In this document: piece after piece, positions 7,658 through 58,808 of the stretch
Layout: every line of letters starts with the position of its first letter
How positions within the stretch are numbered: the stretch's first letter is position 1
Assembly: GCA_947471505.1 (NCBI GenBank)
Contig: CANIWM010000015.1
Span: forward strand, 1 to 64,000
Source of the DNA: Chthoniobacteraceae bacterium
GTDB taxonomy: Bacteria > Verrucomicrobiota > Verrucomicrobiia > Chthoniobacterales > Chthoniobacteraceae
DNA length: 64,000 nt
Direction of reading: 5' to 3'
Made by a program: the position numbers and the translations under genes
The notes under the pieces: model-generated
The model's database searches: none
What the model saw: only the letters and a program-made list of their open reading frames with translations
Told to the model about the DNA's origin: nothing

Positions 7658-7698
7658 GGTGTTGGTAGTGTTATGTTGGTTGAGTCAGAGAAGGTTCC

Positions 7699-7931
7699 GG
7701 GACGCATCCGGTATATGTAAGATGCACTCGGGGATATTCCGGGACGCATCCGGTATATGAAAGATGGGCTCGGGAGGGTTCCGGGACGCATCCTGTATAT
7801 GAAAGATTGGCTCGGGAGGGTTCCGGGACGCATCCGATATATGAAAGATGGGCTCGGGAGGGTTCCGGGACGCATCCGATATATGAAAGATGGGCTCGGG
7901 AAGGTTCCCGGACGCATCCGGTATATGCCGG
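7699..7931. repeat. Tandem array of 42-bp units (5 full, 1 partial)
   Basis: Units start at 7699, 7741, 7783, 7825, 7867 and 7909 (partial), each beginning gggacgcatccggtatatg or a close variant; the second half begins agatgggctcggga. Copies are 85-98% identical to one another by eye and abut directly without spacers. The period is divisible by 3, so several frames are open and read as 14-residue repeats on either strand. The array lies between the unknown gene (ATG at 7657) and a stretch with no clear gene. Confidence 0.95.
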
Positions 7932-43641: not shown

Positions 43642-43966
43642 GAGCACAGGTTCTGGCGTTCATGGGGGCGGTTTAAGCGCAAAAGACGGAATCGGACAGC
43701 AAAAAATCCTTGGCTCTTATACGCATGGGCGGTCTAAATCCTACGAAAGTAATCCACGACGATCATTAAAGAACATGGACGACTAGTTCACCACCCTGGA
43801 CGGGCGGACGGCTGCGGTGGCCTCCTTGGAGGCATCGTAAGTGCGGCCGGTCGGCAGATGGGAATTGTCGGCTGCGTAAAGCCCGTGACCTCCTGGAAGG
43901 CTCCCAAGGGGCTTTGGCTCGTGTGGGGATGGATAAATACTATCCATCCTGCCCCCCGGACGTTCC
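43642..43966. other. Intergenic region with a palindrome and a possible gene remnant
   Basis: A near-perfect palindrome ggatggata-N5-tatccatcc lies at 43927-43949. A minus-strand frame from the array into this region ends at 43783 with a plausible protein-like tail (GHGLYAADNSHLPTGRTYD...). It has no recognised domain and could be the 3' end of a degraded gene. No other feature is seen. Confidence 0.4.
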
Positions 43967-43967
43967 A

Positions 43968-44177
43968 GACAGGTCCCCGTCCCCTCCAGACAGGTTCCCG
44001 TGGTCGCCAGACAGGCTCCCGTGCTCGCCAGACAAGCTCCCGTGCTCGCCAGACAGGCTCCCGTGCTCGCCAGACAGGCTCCCGTGCTCGCCAGACAGGT
44101 CCCCGTGCTCGCCAGACAGGTCCCCGTGCTTTCCAGATAGCCTCCCGCCCGCTCCAGACGGCATCCCTTTTCCCCCG
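43968..44177. repeat. 21-bp tandem array (about 9 full units)
   Basis: Units start at 43968 and every 21 bp to 44136, with a decayed unit after that. The consensus begins gacaggctcccgtgctcgc. Units 5 and 6 are identical and the outermost ones decay. Repeats abut with no spacer. Read on the minus strand they give seven-residue repeats (SLSGEHG); both strands are open simply because of the period. Confidence 0.95.
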
Positions 44178-45835: not shown

Positions 45836-46594
45836 TTACTGCCAAGAGGGGATATCATCCGGCGCTTCATTCAACGCGCCGGGCTTGCGGAAGGTCACAT
45901 AGCCCTTGCCGCCAAACTTCGTGTCTTTCGCGATGGAGAATGCGACAGCGCTAAAGCGAATCTTCGCTCCGGCATCACCGTCGGCTTTCAAGTCCGTCCA
46001 GAAATCGCCGAGGTCGAGCTCCTCATTCCCATCCGCATCAAGGACTACGAAAAACTCTGTGCCCCAAGGGTCGTAGAGCCGGCCCTGACGGTCGCCAAAC
46101 TCTTGCCCATCGGCGAACCCGTTGCGAGTTTTGCGGATCACAACATCCGATGCCTTCTTGCCTTCAAAGTAATGCACTTGGCGACGATTCAACGCGTGGT
46201 CCTTATTTTCTCCTCGCGAAATTGCCCGCAACACATCGAAAAGCTCGTTCGTATTTACTTTCACTTTCCCTTCCGAAATCTCCGTGTCCCCGTAGGCGTA
46301 GTAAGACTCGGTAGCCTCATTCTTCCCTCCTGAACCAGACCCCTTGGACTCCACGAGTGCCTTTTCAATCGGCGGGTACTTCCCGTAATCATTGTAATAA
46401 ACCTTCGATGCGGCCACGATATTGCGAACCATCACACCGGCGTCGGCACGGCGAGCATTGTCGCGCGCTCCGCTGATGGCGGGGAAAAGCAGCCCCATTA
46501 AAATCGCAATGATGGCGATGACGGTGAGAAGTTCGACCAGCGTGAAGGCGAATTGTGGGCGGAGACCAGAGGTTTTTGTGATGTTCTGTTTCAT
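45836..46594 (-). CDS. Type II secretion/type IV pilus-like pseudopilin
   Basis: 252 residues from ATG 46594. The prepilin signature is FTLVELLTVIAIIAILMGLLFPAISGARDNARR, preceded by Ala rather than the usual Gly at the cleavage position. The large C-terminal part (GRLYDPWGTEFFVVLDADGNEELDLGDF) resembles GspG-like major pseudopilins that bind calcium through Asp-rich loops. Such proteins are numerous in Verrucomicrobia, and their secretion machinery is not in this window. Confidence 0.85.
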   Translation of the reverse strand: MKQNITKTSGLRPQFAFTLVELLTVIAIIAILMGLLFPAISGARDNARRADAGVMVRNIVAASKVYYNDYGKYPPIEKALVESKGSGSGGKNEATESYYAYGDTEISEGKVKVNTNELFDVLRAISRGENKDHALNRRQVHYFEGKKASDVVIRKTRNGFADGQEFGDRQGRLYDPWGTEFFVVLDADGNEELDLGDFWTDLKADGDAGAKIRFSAVAFSIAKDTKFGGKGYVTFRKPGALNEAPDDIPSWQ

Positions 46595-46840
46595 TTGGTA
46601 ATATCTTGGTGGTTGGGGCGAAACTATCGGCGCTCGCGAAGGAAACAACTGAATTTCTTGTTCGTTTCGGATTTTCACAACGGCCGCGTTTCGGTGCCCG
46701 GCGCAGCCCATTCAAAATATGGATCGAGCGCATTGGCCGCCTTTCAAATCCGCTTACTATGACGGGCATGAGAGCCGAATGCGCGCTGGACTCCCGCAGT
46801 CTCCGCGCCGATGATTGCCGAGAAATTTGACCTTTAGCCC

Positions 46841-48928
46841 GTGGCACGCCGCATCAAGAAAACCAACCGCCGTAGTAGCGGTAATCGACCTCGCACACAT
46901 CTTCGTTGGAAGCGCTTGTTGCTTCATCTGGTGGGATGGCCCTTCCTTGTGACGGTGCTGGTATTGGGGGTCTATTATTGGCGGGCTTCGAGATTCGACA
47001 TGACGGGGGTGACGGTGATGAAGGAGCGCTCTACGGTGTATGATTTGGACGGGAAGGTGTGGGGACGGATGCAGGGCGAGAATCGTGTGCCGGTGCCGCT
47101 CGTGGAGGTGTCGCCGCTGTTTGTGGCGTCGCTTTTGGCGCGGGAGGATACGCGATTTTTCAGTCATTGGGGCGTGGACCCGATGGGGCTGGCGCGGGCG
47201 GTGGTGAGGACTGCGCAGGGGAAGCAGCAAGGCGGGAGCACGCTGACGCAGCAATTGGCACGCAACAGCTTTGATTCGCTAGGGCAGAGAAAGAGCATGG
47301 ATAGGAAGCTACTGGAGGTGTTCGTATCGTTGCGGATCGAAAAGGCTTACGGAAAAGGGGATATTCTGGAGCACTACATGAACCGAATCTATTTCGGAAG
47401 CGGGGTTTACGGGATCGAAATGGCGAGCAAGGTTTACTTTGGAAAGAGCGCCTCGCAGCTCAATCTTAGCGAGGCCGCGATGATTGCGGGGATCATCCGG
47501 GCGCCCACGAAAGCGTCGCCTTTTACCAACTATAAACGAGCGGTGGCGGAGCGGGATATGGTGCTGGAGCGGCTGAAAAACAGCGATTGCGACTGGATTC
47601 GGGAGAAGTACGCCCTTTCGCCGGAGGCTATCGAGGCTGCGAAGAAATCAACGCTGAAGGTGGTGGCGGCGAAGCGACTCACGACGCAGGAGAATTATGC
47701 GATGGATGCAATTCATCGGGATTTGGACATCCTTTTGGATGATGCTCAGCAGGACCAAGGTGGGCTGAAGATTTACACAACGATCGATCCTGTGCTCCAG
47801 GAGGAAGCGCAGAAGGCGCTCGATAGGCAGTTGACGAAAGTCGAGGCTCGTCCGGGGTATCCGCACTTTAAAAAAGCGGCGTTTAGTGACGAGATGAGGC
47901 TCGCAGAGCAAGCGACAGAATACCTCCAAGGCGCAGTCATGGTGCTGGATAATCGAGCCGGGGCGATCCGGGCGCTGGTGGGTGGGCGAGATTATCGGGA
48001 GAGTAAATTCAATCGGGCGCTGGATGCGAAAAGGCAGATCGGCTCGACGTTTAAGCCTTTCGTGTATGCGGCGGCGTTTGAGAAAGGGATGACGCCTTCC
48101 ACTTTAATCTCCGACGAGGCGATCGGGCGGGGCGAAATCGCGGGAGCGCCGAATTGGACCCCGGACAATTCGGACGACAAGTATGGCGGTATGCTACCCG
48201 CGGAAGACGGGCTCATCCGCTCGCGCAACACGATGACAGTCCGGGTGGGAGCGCGCGCTGGGCTTGAGGCGGTGCAAAAGGTCGCGACTGCTGTGGGGCT
48301 GGAAGAAATGCCGCTGGCCCCTGTGTCTTATATCGGGACATTCGGAGCGACGCTGAAGGACTTGGCCACGGCGTATTCGGTGCTGGCGAATGACGGAGTG
48401 CGGCGACAGAGCTACATCATTGAGCGCATCGACAACGCAGAGGGCGAAGTGCTTTACCGGGCATCGCACGTGAAGATCGCCGCACTATCCGCAGACGTGG
48501 CACGAATGACGACGGGAGTGCTGGCAAAGGTCTTCGAGCGAGGAACGGCGTCCGCTGCGAAGGATTTGGGGTGGAAGTTCCCCGCTGCGGGAAAGACGGG
48601 GACGACAAATGATTATCACGATGCGTGGTTCGTGGGATACACGCCGAGTCTGACGTGCGGGGTATGGGTCGGCCTAGATAAGCCGGCGACCATCGTCCCA
48701 AAAGGATACGGTGCGACTTTAGCGCTTCCCGTGTGGGTGGATGTGATGAAGCGCGCGGATGCCGATCGTTACCCGGCGCAAGGATTTAAGCCGAGCGAGG
48801 GGCGACGCGGAGATTTCGTGCAGGCGAAAAAAGAAGGCGCTCCCGACGAGGGCGGTTTGCGCAAACCGGAGGCAAAACCAGAGCCGGGATTGTTGCGCTC
48901 ATTTCGCCAGTTTTTCGGCGGGAACTGA
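46841..48928 (+). CDS. Class A penicillin-binding protein (transglycosylase/transpeptidase)
   Basis: A 695-residue inner-membrane peptidoglycan synthase. It starts at GTG and has one N-terminal membrane helix (LLLHLVGWPFLVTVLVLGVYYW). The GT51 motifs are LAREDTRFF (catalytic Glu about 102) and GGSTLTQQLARNSF. The transpeptidase motifs are STFK (Ser about 402), SRNT and KTGT (about 585). The protein polymerises and cross-links the cell wall. It belongs to the PBP1a/PBP1c-like group; the exact subgroup is not assigned. The C-terminus is a short charged tail. Confidence 0.95.
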   Translation: MARRIKKTNRRSSGNRPRTHLRWKRLLLHLVGWPFLVTVLVLGVYYWRASRFDMTGVTVMKERSTVYDLDGKVWGRMQGENRVPVPLVEVSPLFVASLLAREDTRFFSHWGVDPMGLARAVVRTAQGKQQGGSTLTQQLARNSFDSLGQRKSMDRKLLEVFVSLRIEKAYGKGDILEHYMNRIYFGSGVYGIEMASKVYFGKSASQLNLSEAAMIAGIIRAPTKASPFTNYKRAVAERDMVLERLKNSDCDWIREKYALSPEAIEAAKKSTLKVVAAKRLTTQENYAMDAIHRDLDILLDDAQQDQGGLKIYTTIDPVLQEEAQKALDRQLTKVEARPGYPHFKKAAFSDEMRLAEQATEYLQGAVMVLDNRAGAIRALVGGRDYRESKFNRALDAKRQIGSTFKPFVYAAAFEKGMTPSTLISDEAIGRGEIAGAPNWTPDNSDDKYGGMLPAEDGLIRSRNTMTVRVGARAGLEAVQKVATAVGLEEMPLAPVSYIGTFGATLKDLATAYSVLANDGVRRQSYIIERIDNAEGEVLYRASHVKIAALSADVARMTTGVLAKVFERGTASAAKDLGWKFPAAGKTGTTNDYHDAWFVGYTPSLTCGVWVGLDKPATIVPKGYGATLALPVWVDVMKRADADRYPAQGFKPSEGRRGDFVQAKKEGAPDEGGLRKPEAKPEPGLLRSFRQFFGGN

Positions 48929-49110: not shown

Positions 49111-49941
49111 GTGAGCTTTCACCGACTAGACCGATTTGAGATGAAGTTCGTCATCGACGCTGATACACGCGCTCGATTGATGGAAACCCTCGAACCTGAA
49201 CTCTGCGCTGACGCCAATGCAGATGAGACGGCGTATTACCCCATCGTCTCGCTCTACTACGACAACGCGGAACGTGACTGCTATTGGGAGAAAGTGCAGG
49301 GGTCCAAAAATCGTAGGAAGTTCCGTGTCCGTGTCTATGGCAGCAACGGCGGCAAAATCCCGCCGACCGTCTTTATCGAAGTGAAGCACAAGCAGGAAGG
49401 CCGTGGAGTAAAGCGCCGCGTTCGGATGCCGCTGGAAGCCGCCTTGCTCGTGGGGCAAGGAACGATGCCCGAGATTCCGCTGAGCCCTGTGGACCGGCGG
49501 ACTTGCGAAGAGATCATCAATGATTTGGTGATTCGGCGTGGCTTCCGGCCCTGCATGACGATGCGCTACGATCGCCGCGCCTATGCCTCGAAAGACCCAA
49601 CGAGCGACCTGCGCGTCACTTTCGACACAGGAATCGCGTACCGCCTCGATAACCTAGACCCGACGCCGGACGACCAGCGTTTTCTCCCGGAAAACTACAT
49701 GTATCCGGCAGAGACATCCGTTTTGGAGGTCAAAATCACGGGAACGATTCCCTACAGTCTCAGCGTATTGCTCGCACGGACTGGCTGCAAACTACAGAGC
49801 CACTCCAAGTACTGCAATGCGCTCGAACGGAGCGACCCCGTGCTCCGCGCGATGCTCGCCCCGAACTGGAGAAAACCACTTCCTGCGGAACCCAACCTCA
49901 TTACCGCGCCAGACGGAGTTTTAATTCCATCTGTCGGCTAA
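49111..49941 (+). CDS. VTC-domain protein (polyphosphate-polymerase-like)
   Basis: A 276-residue soluble protein starting at GTG 49111. RFEMKFVID, KFRVRVYGS, VFIEVKHKQEGRGVKRR, TMRYDRRAY and VLEVKITG form the tunnel-fold basic and acidic residues of the VTC domain (CYTH-like), the family that in yeast makes polyphosphate from ATP. It is the first gene of a cluster with DUF4956, a pseudopilin and a CotH protein, a combination repeatedly seen in bacterial genomes. Polyphosphate synthesis is inferred, not shown. Confidence 0.92.
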   Translation: MSFHRLDRFEMKFVIDADTRARLMETLEPELCADANADETAYYPIVSLYYDNAERDCYWEKVQGSKNRRKFRVRVYGSNGGKIPPTVFIEVKHKQEGRGVKRRVRMPLEAALLVGQGTMPEIPLSPVDRRTCEEIINDLVIRRGFRPCMTMRYDRRAYASKDPTSDLRVTFDTGIAYRLDNLDPTPDDQRFLPENYMYPAETSVLEVKITGTIPYSLSVLLARTGCKLQSHSKYCNALERSDPVLRAMLAPNWRKPLPAEPNLITAPDGVLIPSVG

Positions 49942-49979
49942 GGCCGCGCCCATTCAACCCGATTAGTTACTCTATAATA

Positions 49980-50813
49980 ATGCTGCAATCCATACTACCA
50001 ACACTCGCCGCTGCGGCTTCCAACGCCACGCCGGAAGACATCGAACCAGAAAAACTCGGACCCCTTCTCAGAGTCCTTCACGACATGGGCCTAAACGGCA
50101 TCGTGACTTTCTTCCACGACACGCTGAATTTCAAAGCGGCGGACGCAGGACTGCCGGAGATTCTTTTCGCGATCTTCCTATCCTTCATGCTCAATGCGCT
50201 CATCGCAGCGGTCTATCGCTCCACGTTCCGTGGTGCCAAGCTCTCGCAGGACTACGTCCATACGCTGATGATTCTCGGAGTCGTAGTGACGGCGATCATC
50301 ATGGTCGTGCGGTTCGGCGATAAGGATAAAGCACAGGCGACGGCATTCGGTATGTTTGCCGCATTCTCGATTATTCGATTCCGCGCCACAGTCAGTGAGA
50401 CTCGCGACATCGGCTTCATCTTCCTCGCCATGGCGACCGGCCTCGCAGTCGGTGCTCGCCAATACGGCATGGCGGTTGCGACGACGCCCGTGATCGCCGC
50501 AATTATCTACTACTTTTCCCGTGGTAACTGGTTCGCGCCAAACCGCGCCAGCCACTTTTTACGCATTCGTGTCACAAATGACATCAACTACGATGTTGCA
50601 TTTGAGGCAGTCTTCAACAAGTTCCTCGAGAAGCACGACATCATCTCGGTGGAATCCATTCAGGCCGGAATGATGACGGAGATTCGCTATAACATTTGCC
50701 TTAAACCAGAACACCAAGCCGGAGAACTCGTCGCAGCCATCCAACAGGTCAACGGTAACAACCGCGTCCTGCTCACCTCCACCGCTCCGAACCGCACACT
50801 CGGCACAGACTAG
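49980..50813 (+). CDS. DUF4956 membrane protein
   Basis: A 277-residue integral membrane protein. Several hydrophobic helices lie between about 55 and 185 (ILFAIFLSFMLNALIAAVY, HTLMILGVVVTAIIMVVRF, SIIRFRATVSETRDIGFIFLAMATGLAVG). A soluble alpha/beta part follows (FLRIRVTNDINYDVAFEAVFNKFLEKHDIISVESIQ). This matches DUF4956, which is almost always next to a VTC-domain gene. It follows the VTC gene by 38 bp. Probably the membrane partner of the VTC protein; its role is unknown. Confidence 0.9.
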   Translation: MLQSILPTLAAAASNATPEDIEPEKLGPLLRVLHDMGLNGIVTFFHDTLNFKAADAGLPEILFAIFLSFMLNALIAAVYRSTFRGAKLSQDYVHTLMILGVVVTAIIMVVRFGDKDKAQATAFGMFAAFSIIRFRATVSETRDIGFIFLAMATGLAVGARQYGMAVATTPVIAAIIYYFSRGNWFAPNRASHFLRIRVTNDINYDVAFEAVFNKFLEKHDIISVESIQAGMMTEIRYNICLKPEHQAGELVAAIQQVNGNNRVLLTSTAPNRTLGTD

Positions 50814-50817
50814 AACC

Positions 50818-51651
50818 ATGAAAATTACACCGTCCGCCACAATGCCCCGCCGCCAGTCGGCGTTCACCTTGATGGAGATATTGGTCGTCATCGCGATCAT
50901 TATCGTCATCGCCGCCATCGCGTTGCCTGTCTTCGCCAAACTCAAAGCGAATTCAAACAAAGCAGTCGCCTTGGCTATCATGAAGAACCTCGGTAGCGCA
51001 GCCGCAACTTACGCGGGACAGCACGATGGGCTTTTGCCTGATGAAGATGCCTCCGGGAAGGAAGACTGGGGCACCATGACCACTCCCGACCAGCAGAAGG
51101 CGTGGTACAATGCGCTTCCCAAGCAAATGGGAGCAAAATCGCCAGCCGACTATGTGCAAGAGGGGCGCACTGCGGCCTTCTACACCAAGGAGAATATCCT
51201 TTGGCTACCTGGTGCCCATTATCCTGAAATGAAAAAGGCGCAAAAGCCGCTCTTCGCGATTGCGATCAATGGCAAACTCCAACGGAAGGATAAGGACGAC
51301 AAGAAAAACGAGGTTCGGCTTCAAGCCATCACGAACCCAAGTCGGACTGTGATCTTCCTTGAGCAAGGTCTCCCCGGCGAAGAACGCGCCCACGAGACCA
51401 TCTCTAAGAAAGATTATGACGGAGCCCCAAAAGGCAACGCCAAGTCCTTCGTCGCCCGCTACACGAGCAAAGGAGTCATCTCCTTCCTCGATGGATCTGC
51501 ACGTGAGGTCGCGGGGAAGGACCTGCTCGATTCCACGGGGAAAATCATCTGGGCCGCCGATGCAGATACGAATCAGTCCACGATTCTTTGGACGACGGAC
51601 CCGAAAAGCGACCCGAACGGCAAAGCTGGCGGAGCGCCTGCCGCGAAGTAA
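50818..51651 (+). CDS. Pseudopilin in the VTC/CotH cluster
   Basis: 277 residues with a prepilin N-terminus (FTLMEILVVIAIIIVIAAIALPVFAKLK) and Glu at +5. The residue before cleavage is Ala, as in the pseudopilin at 45836. The C-terminal part has charged repeats typical of such proteins (KPLFAIAINGKLQRKDKDDKKNEVRLQ). It follows DUF4956 by 4 bp, so it is co-transcribed, and is 158 bp upstream of the giant CotH gene. Its presence in this cluster is unusual and may tie CotH function to secretion. Confidence 0.85.
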   Translation: MKITPSATMPRRQSAFTLMEILVVIAIIIVIAAIALPVFAKLKANSNKAVALAIMKNLGSAAATYAGQHDGLLPDEDASGKEDWGTMTTPDQQKAWYNALPKQMGAKSPADYVQEGRTAAFYTKENILWLPGAHYPEMKKAQKPLFAIAINGKLQRKDKDDKKNEVRLQAITNPSRTVIFLEQGLPGEERAHETISKKDYDGAPKGNAKSFVARYTSKGVISFLDGSAREVAGKDLLDSTGKIIWAADADTNQSTILWTTDPKSDPNGKAGGAPAAK

Positions 51652-51809
51652 GGCGTAATCGTAAAACTCACCCATCAGGGCGATTCGACATCTGTCGGAT
51701 CGCGCTGATTTTTTGCCTTCATAAAATGCGGTCCCTTCTCCGCAGAATCGGCTTGCGACAGGCCGGAATCCGCAGAACTGTCGCTCCATCCCCCACGCCG
51801 CTCCTTGCC

Positions 51810-54800
51810 ATGAAAACACACCTACTCCGGATATTCGCATTCTTTGCTCTCGCCCTCGCTCTACGGGCGGGTAACGCGACTTACAACTCGTCCGTCTCCG
51901 CAGATGCGCCCATCGCGTTCTGGTCGTTCGATGAAACCACCGGGACGACAGCAGCCGACTCGGCGGGTGTTGCGCAGAATGGCATCTACGAAAACTGCAC
52001 GCTGGGGCAGACGAGCGCGTTTGCGAACCTTGGGACTTGTGCGCTCTTCAACGGCACCAACTCGCGCGTGCGGATGCCTGCGGATGCGGCGTTCAATCTC
52101 GGGGCGGGGGATTTCTCGGTGGAGCTTTGGTACAAGACGACGGTCACAGGCCGTGGGGACATGTTCAATTTTAAGAACTCGATCGACTTCGGGGTTTTTG
52201 CGAACAGCGCGGGCGCGGGTGACATCGGCGGCTGGCACAACGGGACGCTTCCGAACTTCAATACGACGACGAATGCGTGGCATCATGTCGTTTACGTTCG
52301 TCAGGCCAACACCATCACCCTTTACCTCGATGGCGCTGCAAAAACGTCGGCTGCGGACTCAGTGTCGATGTCGGCAAATACGGACATTGTCATTGGTGCA
52401 AACATCAACGCCCTTTGGTTCACTGGGAATATCGACGAGGTCGCCTACTATGGCACTGCGCTGAGTGCGGCGCGGATTTCGGCTCATTATGCGGCGGCGA
52501 CTACGACCAATCCCAATGCGCCGATCGTCACGACTTCGGCGGCCACGGGTATCACTTCGAGCGGCGCGACAATCGGCGGGGCGTTCACGCAAGTCGGTTC
52601 GCCGGACCCGACGGTCACGATGTATTACGGGCTCACCAATGGCGGCAGCGTTCCCGCGAATTGGACCAATAACGTCGCGCTCGGCACGCGCAACTCGGCG
52701 TTCACTACGAACATCACGGGGCTCACAGCGGCGACGCAGTATTACTTTATCGCACGGGCGCAAAATGCCAGCGGTGACAGCTACGGCCTGCCTGCGGGAA
52801 CTTTCACGACGGCAAATGGAGCGCCGACGGTTGCAAATATCGCGGCGACAAACGTGGTCGCGTCCGGAGCAATCATCGGCGGACAGATTGTCGCGACCGG
52901 CGGGCTGACGCCGAATCTCACGCTTTACTACGGCCCGGCGGATGGCGGGACCACGCCGGGCTCGTGGGCGAGCAGCGTGAATCTCGGCGCGGTGGCGACA
53001 TCGGCGACAACGACGCTCACCGGCCTCACCATTAACACCCCGTATTTCTTCCGCGCCTTCGCGACACACGCTGGCGGAAGCGCATGGGCTCCGTCTTCGG
53101 CGACGTTCACCACGCCGAACGCGACGCCGCCTGCGCTCACGACTGACGCAGCCACGGACGTGAACGGCTTTTCGGCAACGATGCGCGGAACGGTGACGAG
53201 CATCGGCAATGACCCGCCGGTCGTGAAGTTTTACTACGGCACGACTGATGGAGGAAACACGGCGGGTTCGTGGACTTCAAACATCACGCTCCCCGGCACA
53301 CAGACCGCCGCATTTGCAAAAGCACTCAGCGGACTCGCGGCGAACACCACATATTTTTACCGCGCGCAGGCGACAAATGCGGCGGGCACCGTGTGGGCCT
53401 CGGCTTCGCAAACATTCACCACGACCGCCCCGACGACGCGCACCGTGGTCATCAATGAAATCCACTATCATCCAGTGGAACTCCCCGTATTTGACGTGAA
53501 CGGGAATCCGCTCATCGACCTCACGGAAGAGCAGCATGAGTTCATCGAAATCAAGAACGTCTCCGCGTCTCCCATCACCCTCACGGGCTGGAAATTCACG
53601 GCTGGTGTGGACTACGCATTCACCGCCGGGACGACGATTCCCGCAGGCGGATATTTGGTCATCGCGAAAAACCCGGCGCGCCTGCAAACCGTTTACGCTG
53701 GCCTCGCCGGCGTGCTCGGACCATTCACCGGCACGCTCACGAACGGCGGCGACACCATCACGCTGAAAGACCAGGCGAACGCCGTTGTGGACACGGTGAA
53801 ATACGACCGCGAGTTCCCGTGGCCGAACAGCCCCGACGCGCTCGGCGCAGGCGACGACTTCACGCTGCTCAATTCCGCCAACTATCAATACAAAGGCCGC
53901 TCGCTCCAGCGCGTCAGCTCGAACGCAGAAGCTAACGACCCTGCGAACTGGCTCGCCTCGCCCATCGGCAGCGCACCGACTCCCGGCGCGGCAAACGCCG
54001 TTTCGCTGTCCGTGCCAAAGCCGGTGGTTGTCGCGTACAGCGCGGTGCAGCAGAGCGACGACAGTGCGACGATTCGCGCGACGCAGGTCGTTCGCGTCGC
54101 GGCGCAGTTCTCAAACACGGCGGGGCTGACTAATGTGCAGCTCGAATATTTCATCGACGCTATCGACGGCGCGACCGCCTACAGCGAGCCGCGCACCAGC
54201 GTCGCAATGACCGCGCTCGGCAACAACCAGTTCTCCGCGACAATCCCCGGTCAGGCCGATCGCAGCGTCGTTCGCTGGCGTGTGAAAGCGAACCGCGGCG
54301 ACGGCGCGGAGCCCGTCTTCCCGCGCACCGACGATGCGGCCATCGTGCCCGTTGGCGTAAGCACCCGCGAGTCCTGGGCTTCGTATTTTGTACTGCCCGT
54401 CCGCACGACGACAAAGACTGCGATTTACGACGTGCTCATTTCCAACAGCGACAGCACCGACGGCCAGTTCAACGGCTACAACGGACTCGCTGCGATGAAC
54501 TACAACATCACCGGGGCACCGAAACGCGTGACCGACGGCTCGATCAACGGCCTGCCTCGCGACACTCCGTATGTGGCCGCGACCGATAAACTCTGGAACG
54601 GCAGCGTGCCGTGTATTTTCGTCATCGATGGCGTCCTCCGCGACGCGCACATCCGCTACCACGGCAGCCGCTACAACCGCAACGCCGGGCGGCAATCATA
54701 CAAAGTGAAGTTCCCCGACACGCAGCAGGTGAAGGGCGCAGACAGCTTTTTCGTCACCGACAAAAGCGACTACTTCAGCGTCGCGCAGGGGCTCTACTAC

Positions 54801-57800
54801 AATATCAATCTGCCCATTTCGGAAATCAACTGGGTGGACTTTTACCTGAACGGAAACGCCGTCCTCACGCGCCTTCAACAAGGCGAATACAACGGCGACC
54901 TGCTGAGCAAATACCACAAACGAATCGCAGACCTCACGCCCGGCTCTACGAAGGAGGAAAACGGCGAGTTTTACAAAGACGTAGGAACCATCGAGGACAA
55001 CGGAGAAGGTCCTTACGCACACGGCGGCGAACGACCAATCCCCGCAGGCGGACCGTGGACGCAGCTACAGCGCTACGACTGGACATTCACGCTCCAAAAC
55101 AACGCGTGGAAAGGTCCGAAGCCCGTCCGCGATTTGATCGAAAATATGTGGGTGGCGCGCGCCGACAATTACCTCTCGCCGAACCCGAATATCGCCGCGC
55201 TGCGTTCCTACCTCGATGCGAATCTCGACGTGGACGCCACGCTCACGGGCCTCGCGGTTTTGAACTGGATGTGCCCGTGGGACGACACGACGCAAAACCA
55301 CTTCCTGTGGAAACGCGCAAACGGGCGATGGGGCCATATCGCTTGGGACTTCGACGGCATGTTCGGGAACGGCGACACGACCAGCAGCAACTCGTGGATT
55401 TACCTCGGCGAAAACGGCACGCCTTCACCGGCGAGCAACGCACTCGGGACGGTGCTCGGCAACAATTTCCGCGGGCCAAACTGGTTCGAAGACTCCGTCT
55501 TCAAAGCCTACCGCACCGAATACAACAACAAGCTCTGGCTGCTCAATAACACCTACCTCTCCGTCGCGAATCTCCAGTCGCTCACGTATCGCGATCAAGC
55601 CGGCGCAAACGTGAGCTACTACAGCTTCATCAATGGCGTGAAAGCGAACTTCTGCGAAGAGCGCTTCCAAAGCGTGAACATCCAGACCGGCCACGCCGCA
55701 AACGGCAGCGACTTCTTCCGCCCGACATTGCCGACGCTCACCGCGCCCATCGGCGGAGTCACCGCGTTACCGCCGACCGCATTCGCCTCCAGCGCATACA
55801 CGCATACGAGCGGCAACACTACCGGCGGAAATGCCCACGCGAAATCGAAGTGGGAGATCCGCAGCAGCACCGGCACTTACTTCGCGCCCGTCTTTACGAC
55901 CACGAGTTCGACGAGCCTCACATCGCTCGCGATTCCGTTTAGCGAGCTCACCTTTGGCGAAACTTACTTCTGGCGCGTGACGTATATCGACGCGAGCGAG
56001 CACCCATCTTTCCCGTCGGTGGAAAACTCATTCACCTTCGGCGCCCAGCCTACGAATCAGACCTTCATCGCGTTCAATGCATCGTGGAAATACAACTACA
56101 CCACCGCGTTCACGAACAACTCGTGGACGCTTCCGGCATTCGACGATAGCACTTGGACGACGGGAAATGGCGTGTTCATTCAGAACGGCGAACCGGTTCC
56201 GACGCCGGGCACTGCGGGCACCGCCCTTCCCGCGCCGGGCGCTTTGACGCCTGCGTATCGCTCTTACAATTTCCGCAAGACGTTCACGATCTCCACGAAC
56301 CCGCTCACGATCTCGAATCTGCGCATCCGACATCTCATCGATGATGGCTGCGTCATTTGGATCAACGGAAACAAAGTTCACCGCTACTTCTTCAATGAGC
56401 AGGCAAACTACGCGACCACCGAGCTCACCTCGGGCGGCGGTGGGCCCGGAGAAGCCGTGCTGCAAAACGCAGACGCAATCACCAACACCGCGAACTGGGC
56501 ATGGGTGGACCCGCGCCCATTCCTCGTGCAAGGCGTGAACACGATCGCCGTGGAGGTGCATCAAGTGAGCGCTTCGAGCAGTGACATGATGATGGGCTTG
56601 GAAATGACCGGCACGATTCCCGCGAACGGCAACGAAGTCACCATTAACGAAATCATCGCCAACCCCGCGACTGGCGGCACGGATGTCATCGAGCTGAAAA
56701 ACGTCACCGGCGCCGCGATCAACATTGCGGGCTGGGGAATCAGCGATGACTTGCTCAATCCCACGCGCTACGTCTTCCCTGCCGGCACGAGCATCCCCGC
56801 GGGCGGCTACCTCACGGTCGCGTGCGACAGCCTCGTTACGCTCCCGGCGGACCTGCACACAGGCTTCGGCCTCGATAGCGGCGGCCAGCGGATCATCCTC
56901 ACAAACGCTGGCGCGATCAAAGACTACGTCGCATTCGGACCGCAGGCGCGCGGCCTTTCGCTCGGGCGAATCGCCGACGGCACAGGCGCATTCACACTCT
57001 GCACGCCGACAATTGGCGCGACGAATAACGCCGTCGTTTCGCTCGGCTCCACCGCCAATCTCCGCATGAACGAATGGATGGCTCAGCCCGCGCATGGCGA
57101 CGATTGGTTCGAGATTTACAACAGCGACTCCCTGCCCGTGAACATCAGCGGCCTGTGGCTCAGCGACACGCCCAGCACGCCGAAGATCACCCAGATTCCT
57201 CCGTTCAGCTACATCGCAGCAAAGGGCTTCTCCGACTTCCAGGCCGACGGCAAAAACGACGGCGGCAACCACGTCAATTTCAAGCTCAGCGCAGGCGGCG
57301 ACAACCTCGTCATTTCCAACACCGCAGGCACCGCAGCCATCGACACCCTCGCCATCACCAGCGGCGGCAGCGACATCTCCCGCGGTCGTTTTCCAAATGG
57401 CAGCGCGACCCTCGCGAACTTCCCGTTCACCGATTCGCGCGGCGAGAGCAACTGGCTGCAAACGCCCGTCGTCATCAACGAAGCGCTCACGAATTCCGTT
57501 CTCCCGCTCACCGATGAAATCGAGCTCTACAACCCGACCGGCACCGCCGTGGACATTTCCGGTTGGTGGCTCAGCGATGACGCATCCGCACCGCAAAAGT
57601 ATGCATTCCCAAATGGCAGCACCATCGCCGCCGGCGGGTTCCTCACGGTCAACGAGGCGCAGTTCAACGTCGGCGTGGACGCATTTTCGCTCCACTCGCT
57701 TGGCGAAGAAATCGTCCTCACCGCGACGACCGGCGGCGTCCCGACCGGATACCGCGCCCGCGTGAGCTTCGGCGCGGCGGCGGACAATGTCCCGTTTGGC

Positions 57801-58808
57801 CGCGTGCTTACCGGCTCACCGCTGGGTTCGTACAAAGCGGAGTTCTGGCCGCTATTATCCCGCACCCCCGGCGCGGCGAATAGTGCATCGGTCGTCACGC
57901 CCGTCATCATCAACGAAATCCACTATCACCCGACCGACCTCGCCGGCCCGGTGGACAATGCCCGCGACGAATTCGTCGAGCTCCACAACCCGACTACCAG
58001 CGCCGTCGATCTCAGCGGCTGGAAACTCAAAGGCGCGAGCGACTTCATCTTCCCGAACAGCAGCACGCTTCGCGCAGGCGACTACATCGTCGTCGTCGGC
58101 TTCAACCCCGTCACCGACACCGCCACGCTCAACGCATTCCGCTCGGGGACCGGCATGGCCGCAAGCGTCCCCGTCTTCGGACCATTCACGCCGAAGCTTC
58201 CGAACGACGGCGGCGACGTCGAAATCGCACGCCCCATCGCCGCTGGAACCGTCTTCGTCAACGTGGACAAAGTCGAATACACCGACTTCGCCCCGTGGCC
58301 GCTCGCACCCGATGGCACAGGCCCATCGCTCCAACGGCTCAGCCGCGCCGTCATCGGCAACGACCCGGCAAATTGGGCATCCGCCACCGCCACACCCGGC
58401 GCGGTGAATACCGGCGAGTCCGTGATCGCCGACAACGACGGCGACGGAATGCCGAACACGTACGAAGATGCCAACGGCCTCAACAAATTCGTAAACGACG
58501 CGAACGGCGACAACGACGGCGACGGCCAAAGCAACCTCGCTGAATACCTCGCGGGAACGAACCCCAACAACGCAGCCGACCGTTTCATCATCACCAGCGT
58601 CGTCAAAGCGGGCGGCCCCGGCTTCGTCCTCACATTCCCCGCGAAAGCCGGGAAAACGTACACCATTCAATATAAAAACGCGCTTACCGACGCAACGTGG
58701 TCCGCGCTGACAAACATCCCCGCAACCGGCGCCGACGCACCATCACAATACACCGACCCCACCGCCCTGCCGACGCGCTTCTACCGAATCATCACGCCGC
58801 AGCAGTGA
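51810..58808 (+). CDS. Giant secreted LamG/Fn3/CotH/lamin-tail-domain protein
   Basis: A 2,332-residue exported protein with signal peptide MKTHLLRIFAFFALALALRAGNA. Domains in order: a LamG-like domain (about 25-230); three Fn3-like repeats (about 235-540); lamin-tail domain 1 (about 545-675); a CotH kinase-like domain (about 850-1255, with WGHIAWDFDGMFG near 1176); a linker and a galactose-binding-like region (to about 1605); four more lamin-tail domains up to about 2180; an Asp-rich calcium loop DNDGDGMPNTYED near 2208; and a C-terminal module (TYTIQYKNALTDATWS). CotH is a protein kinase in spore coats, so this may be a surface phosphorylation scaffold. It is encoded after VTC and DUF4956. 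Confidence 0.9.
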   Translation: MKTHLLRIFAFFALALALRAGNATYNSSVSADAPIAFWSFDETTGTTAADSAGVAQNGIYENCTLGQTSAFANLGTCALFNGTNSRVRMPADAAFNLGAGDFSVELWYKTTVTGRGDMFNFKNSIDFGVFANSAGAGDIGGWHNGTLPNFNTTTNAWHHVVYVRQANTITLYLDGAAKTSAADSVSMSANTDIVIGANINALWFTGNIDEVAYYGTALSAARISAHYAAATTTNPNAPIVTTSAATGITSSGATIGGAFTQVGSPDPTVTMYYGLTNGGSVPANWTNNVALGTRNSAFTTNITGLTAATQYYFIARAQNASGDSYGLPAGTFTTANGAPTVANIAATNVVASGAIIGGQIVATGGLTPNLTLYYGPADGGTTPGSWASSVNLGAVATSATTTLTGLTINTPYFFRAFATHAGGSAWAPSSATFTTPNATPPALTTDAATDVNGFSATMRGTVTSIGNDPPVVKFYYGTTDGGNTAGSWTSNITLPGTQTAAFAKALSGLAANTTYFYRAQATNAAGTVWASASQTFTTTAPTTRTVVINEIHYHPVELPVFDVNGNPLIDLTEEQHEFIEIKNVSASPITLTGWKFTAGVDYAFTAGTTIPAGGYLVIAKNPARLQTVYAGLAGVLGPFTGTLTNGGDTITLKDQANAVVDTVKYDREFPWPNSPDALGAGDDFTLLNSANYQYKGRSLQRVSSNAEANDPANWLASPIGSAPTPGAANAVSLSVPKPVVVAYSAVQQSDDSATIRATQVVRVAAQFSNTAGLTNVQLEYFIDAIDGATAYSEPRTSVAMTALGNNQFSATIPGQADRSVVRWRVKANRGDGAEPVFPRTDDAAIVPVGVSTRESWASYFVLPVRTTTKTAIYDVLISNSDSTDGQFNGYNGLAAMNYNITGAPKRVTDGSINGLPRDTPYVAATDKLWNGSVPCIFVIDGVLRDAHIRYHGSRYNRNAGRQSYKVKFPDTQQVKGADSFFVTDKSDYFSVAQGLYYNINLPISEINWVDFYLNGNAVLTRLQQGEYNGDLLSKYHKRIADLTPGSTKEENGEFYKDVGTIEDNGEGPYAHGGERPIPAGGPWTQLQRYDWTFTLQNNAWKGPKPVRDLIENMWVARADNYLSPNPNIAALRSYLDANLDVDATLTGLAVLNWMCPWDDTTQNHFLWKRANGRWGHIAWDFDGMFGNGDTTSSNSWIYLGENGTPSPASNALGTVLGNNFRGPNWFEDSVFKAYRTEYNNKLWLLNNTYLSVANLQSLTYRDQAGANVSYYSFINGVKANFCEERFQSVNIQTGHAANGSDFFRPTLPTLTAPIGGVTALPPTAFASSAYTHTSGNTTGGNAHAKSKWEIRSSTGTYFAPVFTTTSSTSLTSLAIPFSELTFGETYFWRVTYIDASEHPSFPSVENSFTFGAQPTNQTFIAFNASWKYNYTTAFTNNSWTLPAFDDSTWTTGNGVFIQNGEPVPTPGTAGTALPAPGALTPAYRSYNFRKTFTISTNPLTISNLRIRHLIDDGCVIWINGNKVHRYFFNEQANYATTELTSGGGGPGEAVLQNADAITNTANWAWVDPRPFLVQGVNTIAVEVHQVSASSSDMMMGLEMTGTIPANGNEVTINEIIANPATGGTDVIELKNVTGAAINIAGWGISDDLLNPTRYVFPAGTSIPAGGYLTVACDSLVTLPADLHTGFGLDSGGQRIILTNAGAIKDYVAFGPQARGLSLGRIADGTGAFTLCTPTIGATNNAVVSLGSTANLRMNEWMAQPAHGDDWFEIYNSDSLPVNISGLWLSDTPSTPKITQIPPFSYIAAKGFSDFQADGKNDGGNHVNFKLSAGGDNLVISNTAGTAAIDTLAITSGGSDISRGRFPNGSATLANFPFTDSRGESNWLQTPVVINEALTNSVLPLTDEIELYNPTGTAVDISGWWLSDDASAPQKYAFPNGSTIAAGGFLTVNEAQFNVGVDAFSLHSLGEEIVLTATTGGVPTGYRARVSFGAAADNVPFGRVLTGSPLGSYKAEFWPLLSRTPGAANSASVVTPVIINEIHYHPTDLAGPVDNARDEFVELHNPTTSAVDLSGWKLKGASDFIFPNSSTLRAGDYIVVVGFNPVTDTATLNAFRSGTGMAASVPVFGPFTPKLPNDGGDVEIARPIAAGTVFVNVDKVEYTDFAPWPLAPDGTGPSLQRLSRAVIGNDPANWASATATPGAVNTGESVIADNDGDGMPNTYEDANGLNKFVNDANGDNDGDGQSNLAEYLAGTNPNNAADRFIITSVVKAGGPGFVLTFPAKAGKTYTIQYKNALTDATWSALTNIPATGADAPSQYTDPTALPTRFYRIITPQQ

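Follow-up and report, generated by a model that had tools for sequence, protein, structure and literature searches.

A pseudopilin gene conserved beside VTC and DUF4956 genes in a CotH-rich Verrucomicrobiota genome

Introduction

In streptococci, clostridia and bifidobacteria, the genes for CotH, a polyphosphate polymerase and a DUF4956 protein are contiguous with the pel exopolysaccharide cluster (PMC7112168). The same three families are encoded in a 64,000-nucleotide stretch of a Chthoniobacteraceae bacterium with a 6.07-Mb genome (assembly GCA_947471505.1, contig CANIWM010000015.1, positions 1 to 64,000 of the forward strand; this whole stretch is referred to here as the window), where a VTC-domain gene, a DUF4956 gene and a pseudopilin gene are followed by the gene for a 2,332-residue protein with a CotH domain (the giant). 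The original prediction, made from the letters of the window, described these four genes as a single surface assembly system. The locus thus raises the question of whether the four genes belong to one unit, and of what a pilus-like protein and a CotH giant might share with the VTC-DUF4956 pair. The literature searched yielded no paper tying CotH giants to VTC and no description of DUF4956 function.

Results

The locus and its transcription units

Domains of the window proteins were assigned by a Pfam profile scan with family cut-offs, and the existence and placement of all four predicted genes were confirmed. The open reading frame (ORF) coordinates likewise agreed with the predicted spacing, the pseudopilin gene beginning 4 bp downstream of the DUF4956 stop codon. 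The elements are as follows, lengths being given in amino acids (aa).

49111-49941, + strand: VTC-domain protein, a predicted polyphosphate polymerase, 276 aa (PF09359, E 2.2e-38)
49980-50813, + strand: DUF4956 membrane protein, 277 aa (PF16316, E 1.8e-18)
50818-51651, + strand: pseudopilin, 277 aa (N_methyl, PF07963, E 2.9e-6)
51675-51714, + strand: intrinsic terminator between the pseudopilin and the giant, with a long stem and six T (-25 kcal/mol, z -5.9)
51810-58808, + strand: giant, a predicted secreted protein, 2,332 aa (Pfam domains and a signal-peptide-like N-terminus)

None of 200 shuffled sequences formed a structure as stable as the stem-loop at 51675-51714. The terminator occupies the same position in genome G006 and the same place, with a different sequence, in G031 and G033, and it precedes the giant in all four genomes that have this giant directly after the pseudopilin; a terminator-like structure was also found 3' of the pseudopilin in G009. 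Because this structure is conserved between the two genes, the locus was read as two transcription units, and an operon that includes the giant was rejected. As judged from the sequence alone, VTC, DUF4956 and the pseudopilin most likely form a three-gene operon ending at the terminator, and the giant, which is probably not part of it, would be transcribed separately. A promoter scan returned no more sites than were found in shuffled sequences. The claim that the giant belongs to a four-gene unit was therefore not upheld, since a terminator precedes the giant and the giant is only one of 52 CotH matches in the genome.

Conservation of the VTC-DUF4956-pseudopilin order

The VTC-DUF4956-pseudopilin order recurred in relatives whose pseudopilins are just 42-61% identical to that of the window, and the adjacency is therefore not due to chance. 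Preceded by a gene for a class A penicillin-binding protein (PBP), this order was present in seven genomes of the genus, with one contig ending before the PBP gene, and the three-gene order was also found in a second genus of the family (G031 and G033) and in two further families of the order (G041 and G073). The pseudopilin is missing at the locus in G003, G004 and G020.

The predicted pseudopilin link also held in a gene-neighbourhood scan of 80 DUF4956 loci from named Verrucomicrobiota genomes. VTC adjoined DUF4956 in 78 of these loci, the remaining two beginning at contig ends, and a pseudopilin followed DUF4956 in 23 loci from two orders, among them loci of Roseibacillus and further Verrucomicrobiales. 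A small CotH (519-656 aa) was present at 27 loci, none of which has a pseudopilin; at the 12 loci where a CotH of 1,000 aa or more was in view, a pseudopilin was always present, in differing gene orders. On a DUF4956 tree, which was built by a quick method and contains several long branches, the pseudopilin label required 6 changes compared with a mean of 18 for shuffled labels. As the label follows the tree, the split by CotH size is in part a lineage effect. This sequence-based distribution is consistent with an old gain followed by several losses, and the pseudopilin was probably gained in the ancestor of Chthoniobacterales and Verrucomicrobiales and repeatedly lost. No pseudopilin orthologue was found in 18 sampled genomes with VTC-DUF4956, mostly Akkermansiaceae, and most of these contain from 6 to about 60 CotH candidates.

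A divergent type of VTC-DUF4956 pair, with a DUF4956 about 20% identical, is followed by a 356-367-aa protein in place of the pseudopilin (loci L045, 7739-10343; L047, 7748-10395; and L042, 7747-10303).

The pseudopilin family

The pseudopilin resembles the pseudopilins GspG/H/I/J of the type II secretion system (T2SS) in having a prepilin N-terminal motif, SA|FTLME, and a hydrophobic helix; the motif scored 27 bits against a Pfam cut-off of 21.2 and 16.5 against an NCBIfam cut-off of 16.3. It differs from them in its C-terminal domain, which matched no Pfam or NCBIfam model, and the full-length GspG/H/I/J models gave only 10-24 bits, far under their cut-offs of 44-89. Its family members share 34-91% identity with the window protein and have invariant positions throughout their length. 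In a family profile, the window protein scored 468 bits and the DUF4956-linked pseudopilins 230-460 bits, compared with about 60-70 bits for generic pseudopilins; the genome has about 35 pseudopilin candidates in all. By these scores, the operon pseudopilin belongs to one orthologous family that stands far above generic pseudopilins. The family was previously without a name, and a pilus-like partner of VTC-DUF4956 is new. The H-x9-DG prepilin class was considered for the window protein and rejected, as a Tyr replaces the His and no such NCBIfam model appeared; the Roseibacillus members do carry H-x9-DG (ARHNQKGVLLFVDGH).

A GspD-like secretin encoded in the genome gave a full-length match of 292 bits. 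Roseibacillus genomes carry extra pseudopilin paralogues, one class of which is divergent to genes for giants of 1,656-1,845 aa (L213, 4336-10427; L215, 9285-15898; and L217, 4436-10500). The one such giant scanned contained DUF7933 and DUF11 repeats, and these pairs suggest a broader pairing of pseudopilins with giants. At L151 (8804-10360), DUF4956 and the pseudopilin read as a single 518-aa frame; the record has ambiguous bases, and a fusion is not established.

The VTC and DUF4956 proteins

The VTC domain scored 132.6 bits against a cut-off of 23. Its R72 and R74 align with the R-L-R of 3g3q, corresponding to R264 and R266 of yeast Vtc4, which are reported to be essential for polyphosphate synthesis (PMC8749416), and neither these two residues nor the basic residues of the tunnel vary among 18 relatives. 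The window pair is thus like the yeast VTC complex in joining such a catalytic domain to a membrane protein. It is unlike it in that no SPX domain was detected by Pfam, the VTC domain standing alone in the 276-aa protein, and in having DUF4956 as its membrane protein. A fold search that covered mainly the C-terminal domain of DUF4956 showed no relation to the membrane domain of the yeast complex, an absence that does not speak against such a relation.

DUF4956 is predicted to have five transmembrane helices (residues 58-182) and a C-terminal ferredoxin/ACT-like domain (residues 188-273), whose Foldseek matches were ACT/PII-like folds, including the C-terminal domain of MgtC. Membrane helices followed by an ACT-like domain are also the arrangement of the MgtC/SapB family; membership of DUF4956 in that family was nevertheless rejected, because the Pfam MgtC match (E 0.4-2, 9.2 bits) lay well under the cut-off of 31.4.

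The giant and its CotH domain

The most likely start codon of the giant is the ATG at 51810, which yields a 2,332-residue protein with the signal-peptide-like N-terminus MKTHLLRIFAFFALALALRAG. The predicted architecture of LamG, CotH and five lamin-tail domains was borne out by Pfam, and the Fn3-type matches fell just under the cut-off. The features of the giant that bear on its CotH domain and architecture are as follows.

52050-52481, + strand: Laminin_G_3 domain (Pfam; residues 155-298 of the 2,406-aa ORF)
53427-53804, + strand: lamin-tail domain, the best-scoring of five (Pfam)
54651-55580, + strand: CotH kinase-like domain, Pfam stretch (the AF2 model matches 5jd9/5jda)
55281-55283, + strand: Asp1158 of the 2,332-aa protein, aligning with Asp228 of Bacillus subtilis CotH
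55347-55349, + strand: Asp1180 of the 2,332-aa protein (WDFD motif), aligning with Asp251 of B. subtilis CotH

The CotH profile matched the giant with 40.5 bits against a cut-off of 23.8. An AF2 model of the domain (mean pLDDT 65, higher in the core) aligned with B. cereus CotH 5jd9 over 309 residues with a Z of 25.5, compared with 9.7 for the next fold. In a profile alignment, NFDGFVHN...WDYD of 5jd9 aligned with the D...N...WD motifs of the window CotH family, and in 5jd9 a distance of 23 residues separates the two aspartates, as it does D228 and D251 of B. subtilis CotH, both of which are required for activity (PMC7821199). Asp1180 is invariant in 37 aligned CotH domains. The refuting case, a loss of the CotH catalytic residues, was thus not observed, and the window CotH, as modelled and aligned, retains the predicted kinase-like fold and both catalytic aspartates in common with the Bacillus spore-coat kinase (5jd9/5jda). 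It is unlike that kinase in its divergent sequence (16% in the structural alignment), in being one part of a giant that also has a signal peptide and lamin-tail domains, in coming from a phylum not known for endospores, and in the Lys of an F-x-K-K-S-Y motif, conserved in most of the CotH aligned, which is Arg in the window protein and its orthologues. A plain phmmer search of the PDB returned no CotH with the window domain or with another CotH of the same genome; the queries that recovered one were a small Opitutae CotH and a profile. CotH of the window type was found in 6 of 77 relatives; the pseudopilin is present in five of these and absent from G018.

CotH genes in the genome and across the phylum

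The genome contains 52 CotH matches, one in the giant and 51 elsewhere, together with one VTC and one DUF4956. The matches lie mostly in open frames of 1,300-3,100 residues, and the giants sampled combine CotH with lamin-tail, LamG, F5/8 type C, Fn3-associated and CHB_HEX domains. At the loci fetched, the other CotH genes stand alone, and most of them encode a signal-like N-terminus; a recognisable pseudopilin lies beside the window copy only. The scale of this CotH family, with about 50 giant secreted proteins in this genome, is new.

Most of the CotH giants of the genome (L053-L100) have a common C-terminal stretch with endings like RFYRI or RYIRLRV, which is possibly a shared sorting or anchoring tail. 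One CotH gene (L083, G000:C39:7213-8076) is broken by an in-frame TAA and is a possible decaying copy. Genomes of Verrucomicrobiales (G477, G479, G481 and others) have up to 66 first-look CotH candidates, and the CotH expansion is therefore not special to the genus of the window.

Among 387 Verrucomicrobiota genomes, DUF4956 was detected in 76, spanning 34 family codes, CotH in 99 and both in 73. CotH was thus present in 73 of the 76 genomes with DUF4956 and in 26 of the 311 without it (Fisher p 2e-52, uncorrected for kinship), so that the predicted association of VTC-DUF4956 with CotH is borne out genome-wide. In 14 control genomes, VTC and DUF4956 were found in the same three species.

The window also conforms to the known gene set, VTC and DUF4956 being adjacent with CotH nearby and elsewhere in the genome, and Opitutae and some Chthoniobacteraceae have the order CotH-VTC-DUF4956. 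The linkage itself, already published for Firmicutes and bifidobacteria (PMC7112168), is not new here. Contiguity of the same three families is what the window locus shares with the cotH-VTC-DUF4956(-DUF4832) set beside pel; it differs in being without recognised pel genes or DUF4832, in having a pseudopilin after DUF4956, and in the setting of its CotH, which is one of 52 and belongs to a multidomain giant of 2,332 aa that a terminator separates from the pseudopilin.

Neighbouring genes and repeats

46841-48928, + strand: class A PBP gene directly 5' of VTC (Pfam, synteny)

The PBP gene is syntenic within the genus and in one further genus of the family and is without such synteny in Verrucomicrobiales; it probably reflects local synteny rather than membership in the system. 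Just 5' of it lies a second, GspG-like pseudopilin gene (45836-46711, - strand), which is not an orthologue of the operon pseudopilin and is present in G006 too (L038, 14891-15766). The window also contains a tandem array of 8.7 copies of a 21-bp unit (43965-44147), which overlaps several long ORFs that themselves overlap, and one of 5.6 copies of a 42-bp unit (7693-7927).

Discussion

The single four-gene surface assembly system that had been proposed stands in part: the association of VTC-DUF4956 with CotH and the conserved pseudopilin link were supported, and the inclusion of the giant was not. By sequence comparison, the pseudopilin is a real and old partner of VTC-DUF4956. A general tie between the pseudopilin and the CotH giants was not supported, as many Akkermansiaceae are CotH-rich without it and G041 has the cassette with no CotH detected.

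The explanation that we tentatively favour, while rating it as short of probable, is that VTC-DUF4956 supplies polyphosphate in trans to secreted CotH proteins, with the pseudopilin as an accessory. The cytosolic VTC protein would polymerise the gamma-phosphate of ATP into polyphosphate, and DUF4956, whose ACT-like domain is possibly regulatory, would anchor VTC and pass the polymer across the inner membrane, or hold it there, like the membrane part of yeast VTC. The polymer would then serve the many secreted proteins with a CotH kinase fold, most simply by donating phosphoryl groups or supplying phosphate in the ATP-poor space beyond the cytoplasm. Such service in trans fits the presence of a single VTC and a single DUF4956 alongside 52 CotH matches. 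The pseudopilin would be a lineage-specific accessory, plausibly as part of a type II-like pseudopilus by which giant surface proteins are moved or displayed.

Several observations weigh against this explanation. Twenty-six genomes have CotH and no DUF4956, and among the controls B. subtilis has CotH and neither VTC nor DUF4956. The B. subtilis protein acts on the mother-cell side of the spore, with ATP at hand, so that this exception would fit a donor role of VTC-DUF4956. The Lys-to-Arg replacement in the K-K-S-Y motif of the window CotH subfamily is a further point, which we did not take as disqualifying. A fold search with the DUF4956 model, in effect a test of its C-terminal domain, did not recover the membrane domain of yeast VTC, and the secretin lies below the GspD cut-off (292 versus 351 bits). 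The CotH-rich Akkermansiaceae indicate that the pseudopilin is dispensable for giant CotH proteins generally, and in G041 the cassette occurs with no detected CotH. Finally, the activities and roles of all these proteins are predictions.

Three other explanations were weighed, each of which we regard as unlikely. In the first, VTC-DUF4956 is a sensing module, in which VTC binds polyphosphate or a nucleotide and is not a synthase, and the ACT-like domain of DUF4956 signals phosphate, Mg or envelope state and governs how CotH surface proteins are expressed or assembled. The ACT/PII-like fold of that domain, with MgtC among its matches, and the diverse activities of TTM-fold enzymes (PMC8233210) speak for such a module. 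The invariant catalytic basic residues of VTC would be unneeded in a pure sensor, however, and the similarity to MgtC is far below the Pfam cut-off, which makes this account improbable.

It is similarly improbable that the system modifies an envelope polymer, with CotH-type kinases phosphorylating exopolysaccharide or a similar material and VTC-DUF4956 supplying the phosphate. The contiguity of the gene set with pel elsewhere (PMC7112168) and the PBP gene directly 5' in the window would agree with this account, but no polysaccharide synthesis genes were recognised beside the Verrucomicrobiota loci, whose neighbours were identified in part, and the known substrates of CotH are spore-coat proteins (PMC7821199).

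We also doubt that the pseudopilin serves specifically to export or display giant surface proteins and that its adjacency to VTC-DUF4956 marks the functional core. The presence of a pseudopilin at all 12 loci with large CotH and at none of the 27 with small CotH points in this direction, as do the Roseibacillus paralogues divergent to giants. Against it stand the absence of the pseudopilin from Akkermansiaceae whose CotH candidates number up to about 60, the terminator before the giant, the same type of giant without a pseudopilin in G018, and the tracking of lineage by the CotH size split. A chance neighbourhood, in which an ordinary CotH/VTC/DUF4956 remnant lies beside one of the genome's many pseudopilins, is hardly credible despite the abundance of both pseudopilin candidates and CotH matches, as it is contradicted by the conservation of an orthologous pseudopilin family that stays with VTC-DUF4956 in two orders.

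In its most far-reaching form, the favoured explanation of polyphosphate supply would make VTC-DUF4956 a membrane polyphosphate synthase-exporter whose product is the phosphoryl donor of giant secreted CotH kinases, tens of them in all. Verrucomicrobiota would then have a large system for phosphorylation outside the cell, and a dedicated pseudopilin family would export or display giant surface proteins; we consider this form a long shot. The VTC-DUF4956-CotH trio is widespread, and the single VTC-DUF4956 pair facing about 50 secreted CotH proteins, the co-occurrence in 73 of 76 genomes and the co-inherited pseudopilin family make its joint role a testable case. Should secreted kinases be fed by polyphosphate from VTC, this would explain how protein phosphorylation is possible outside the cell without ATP.

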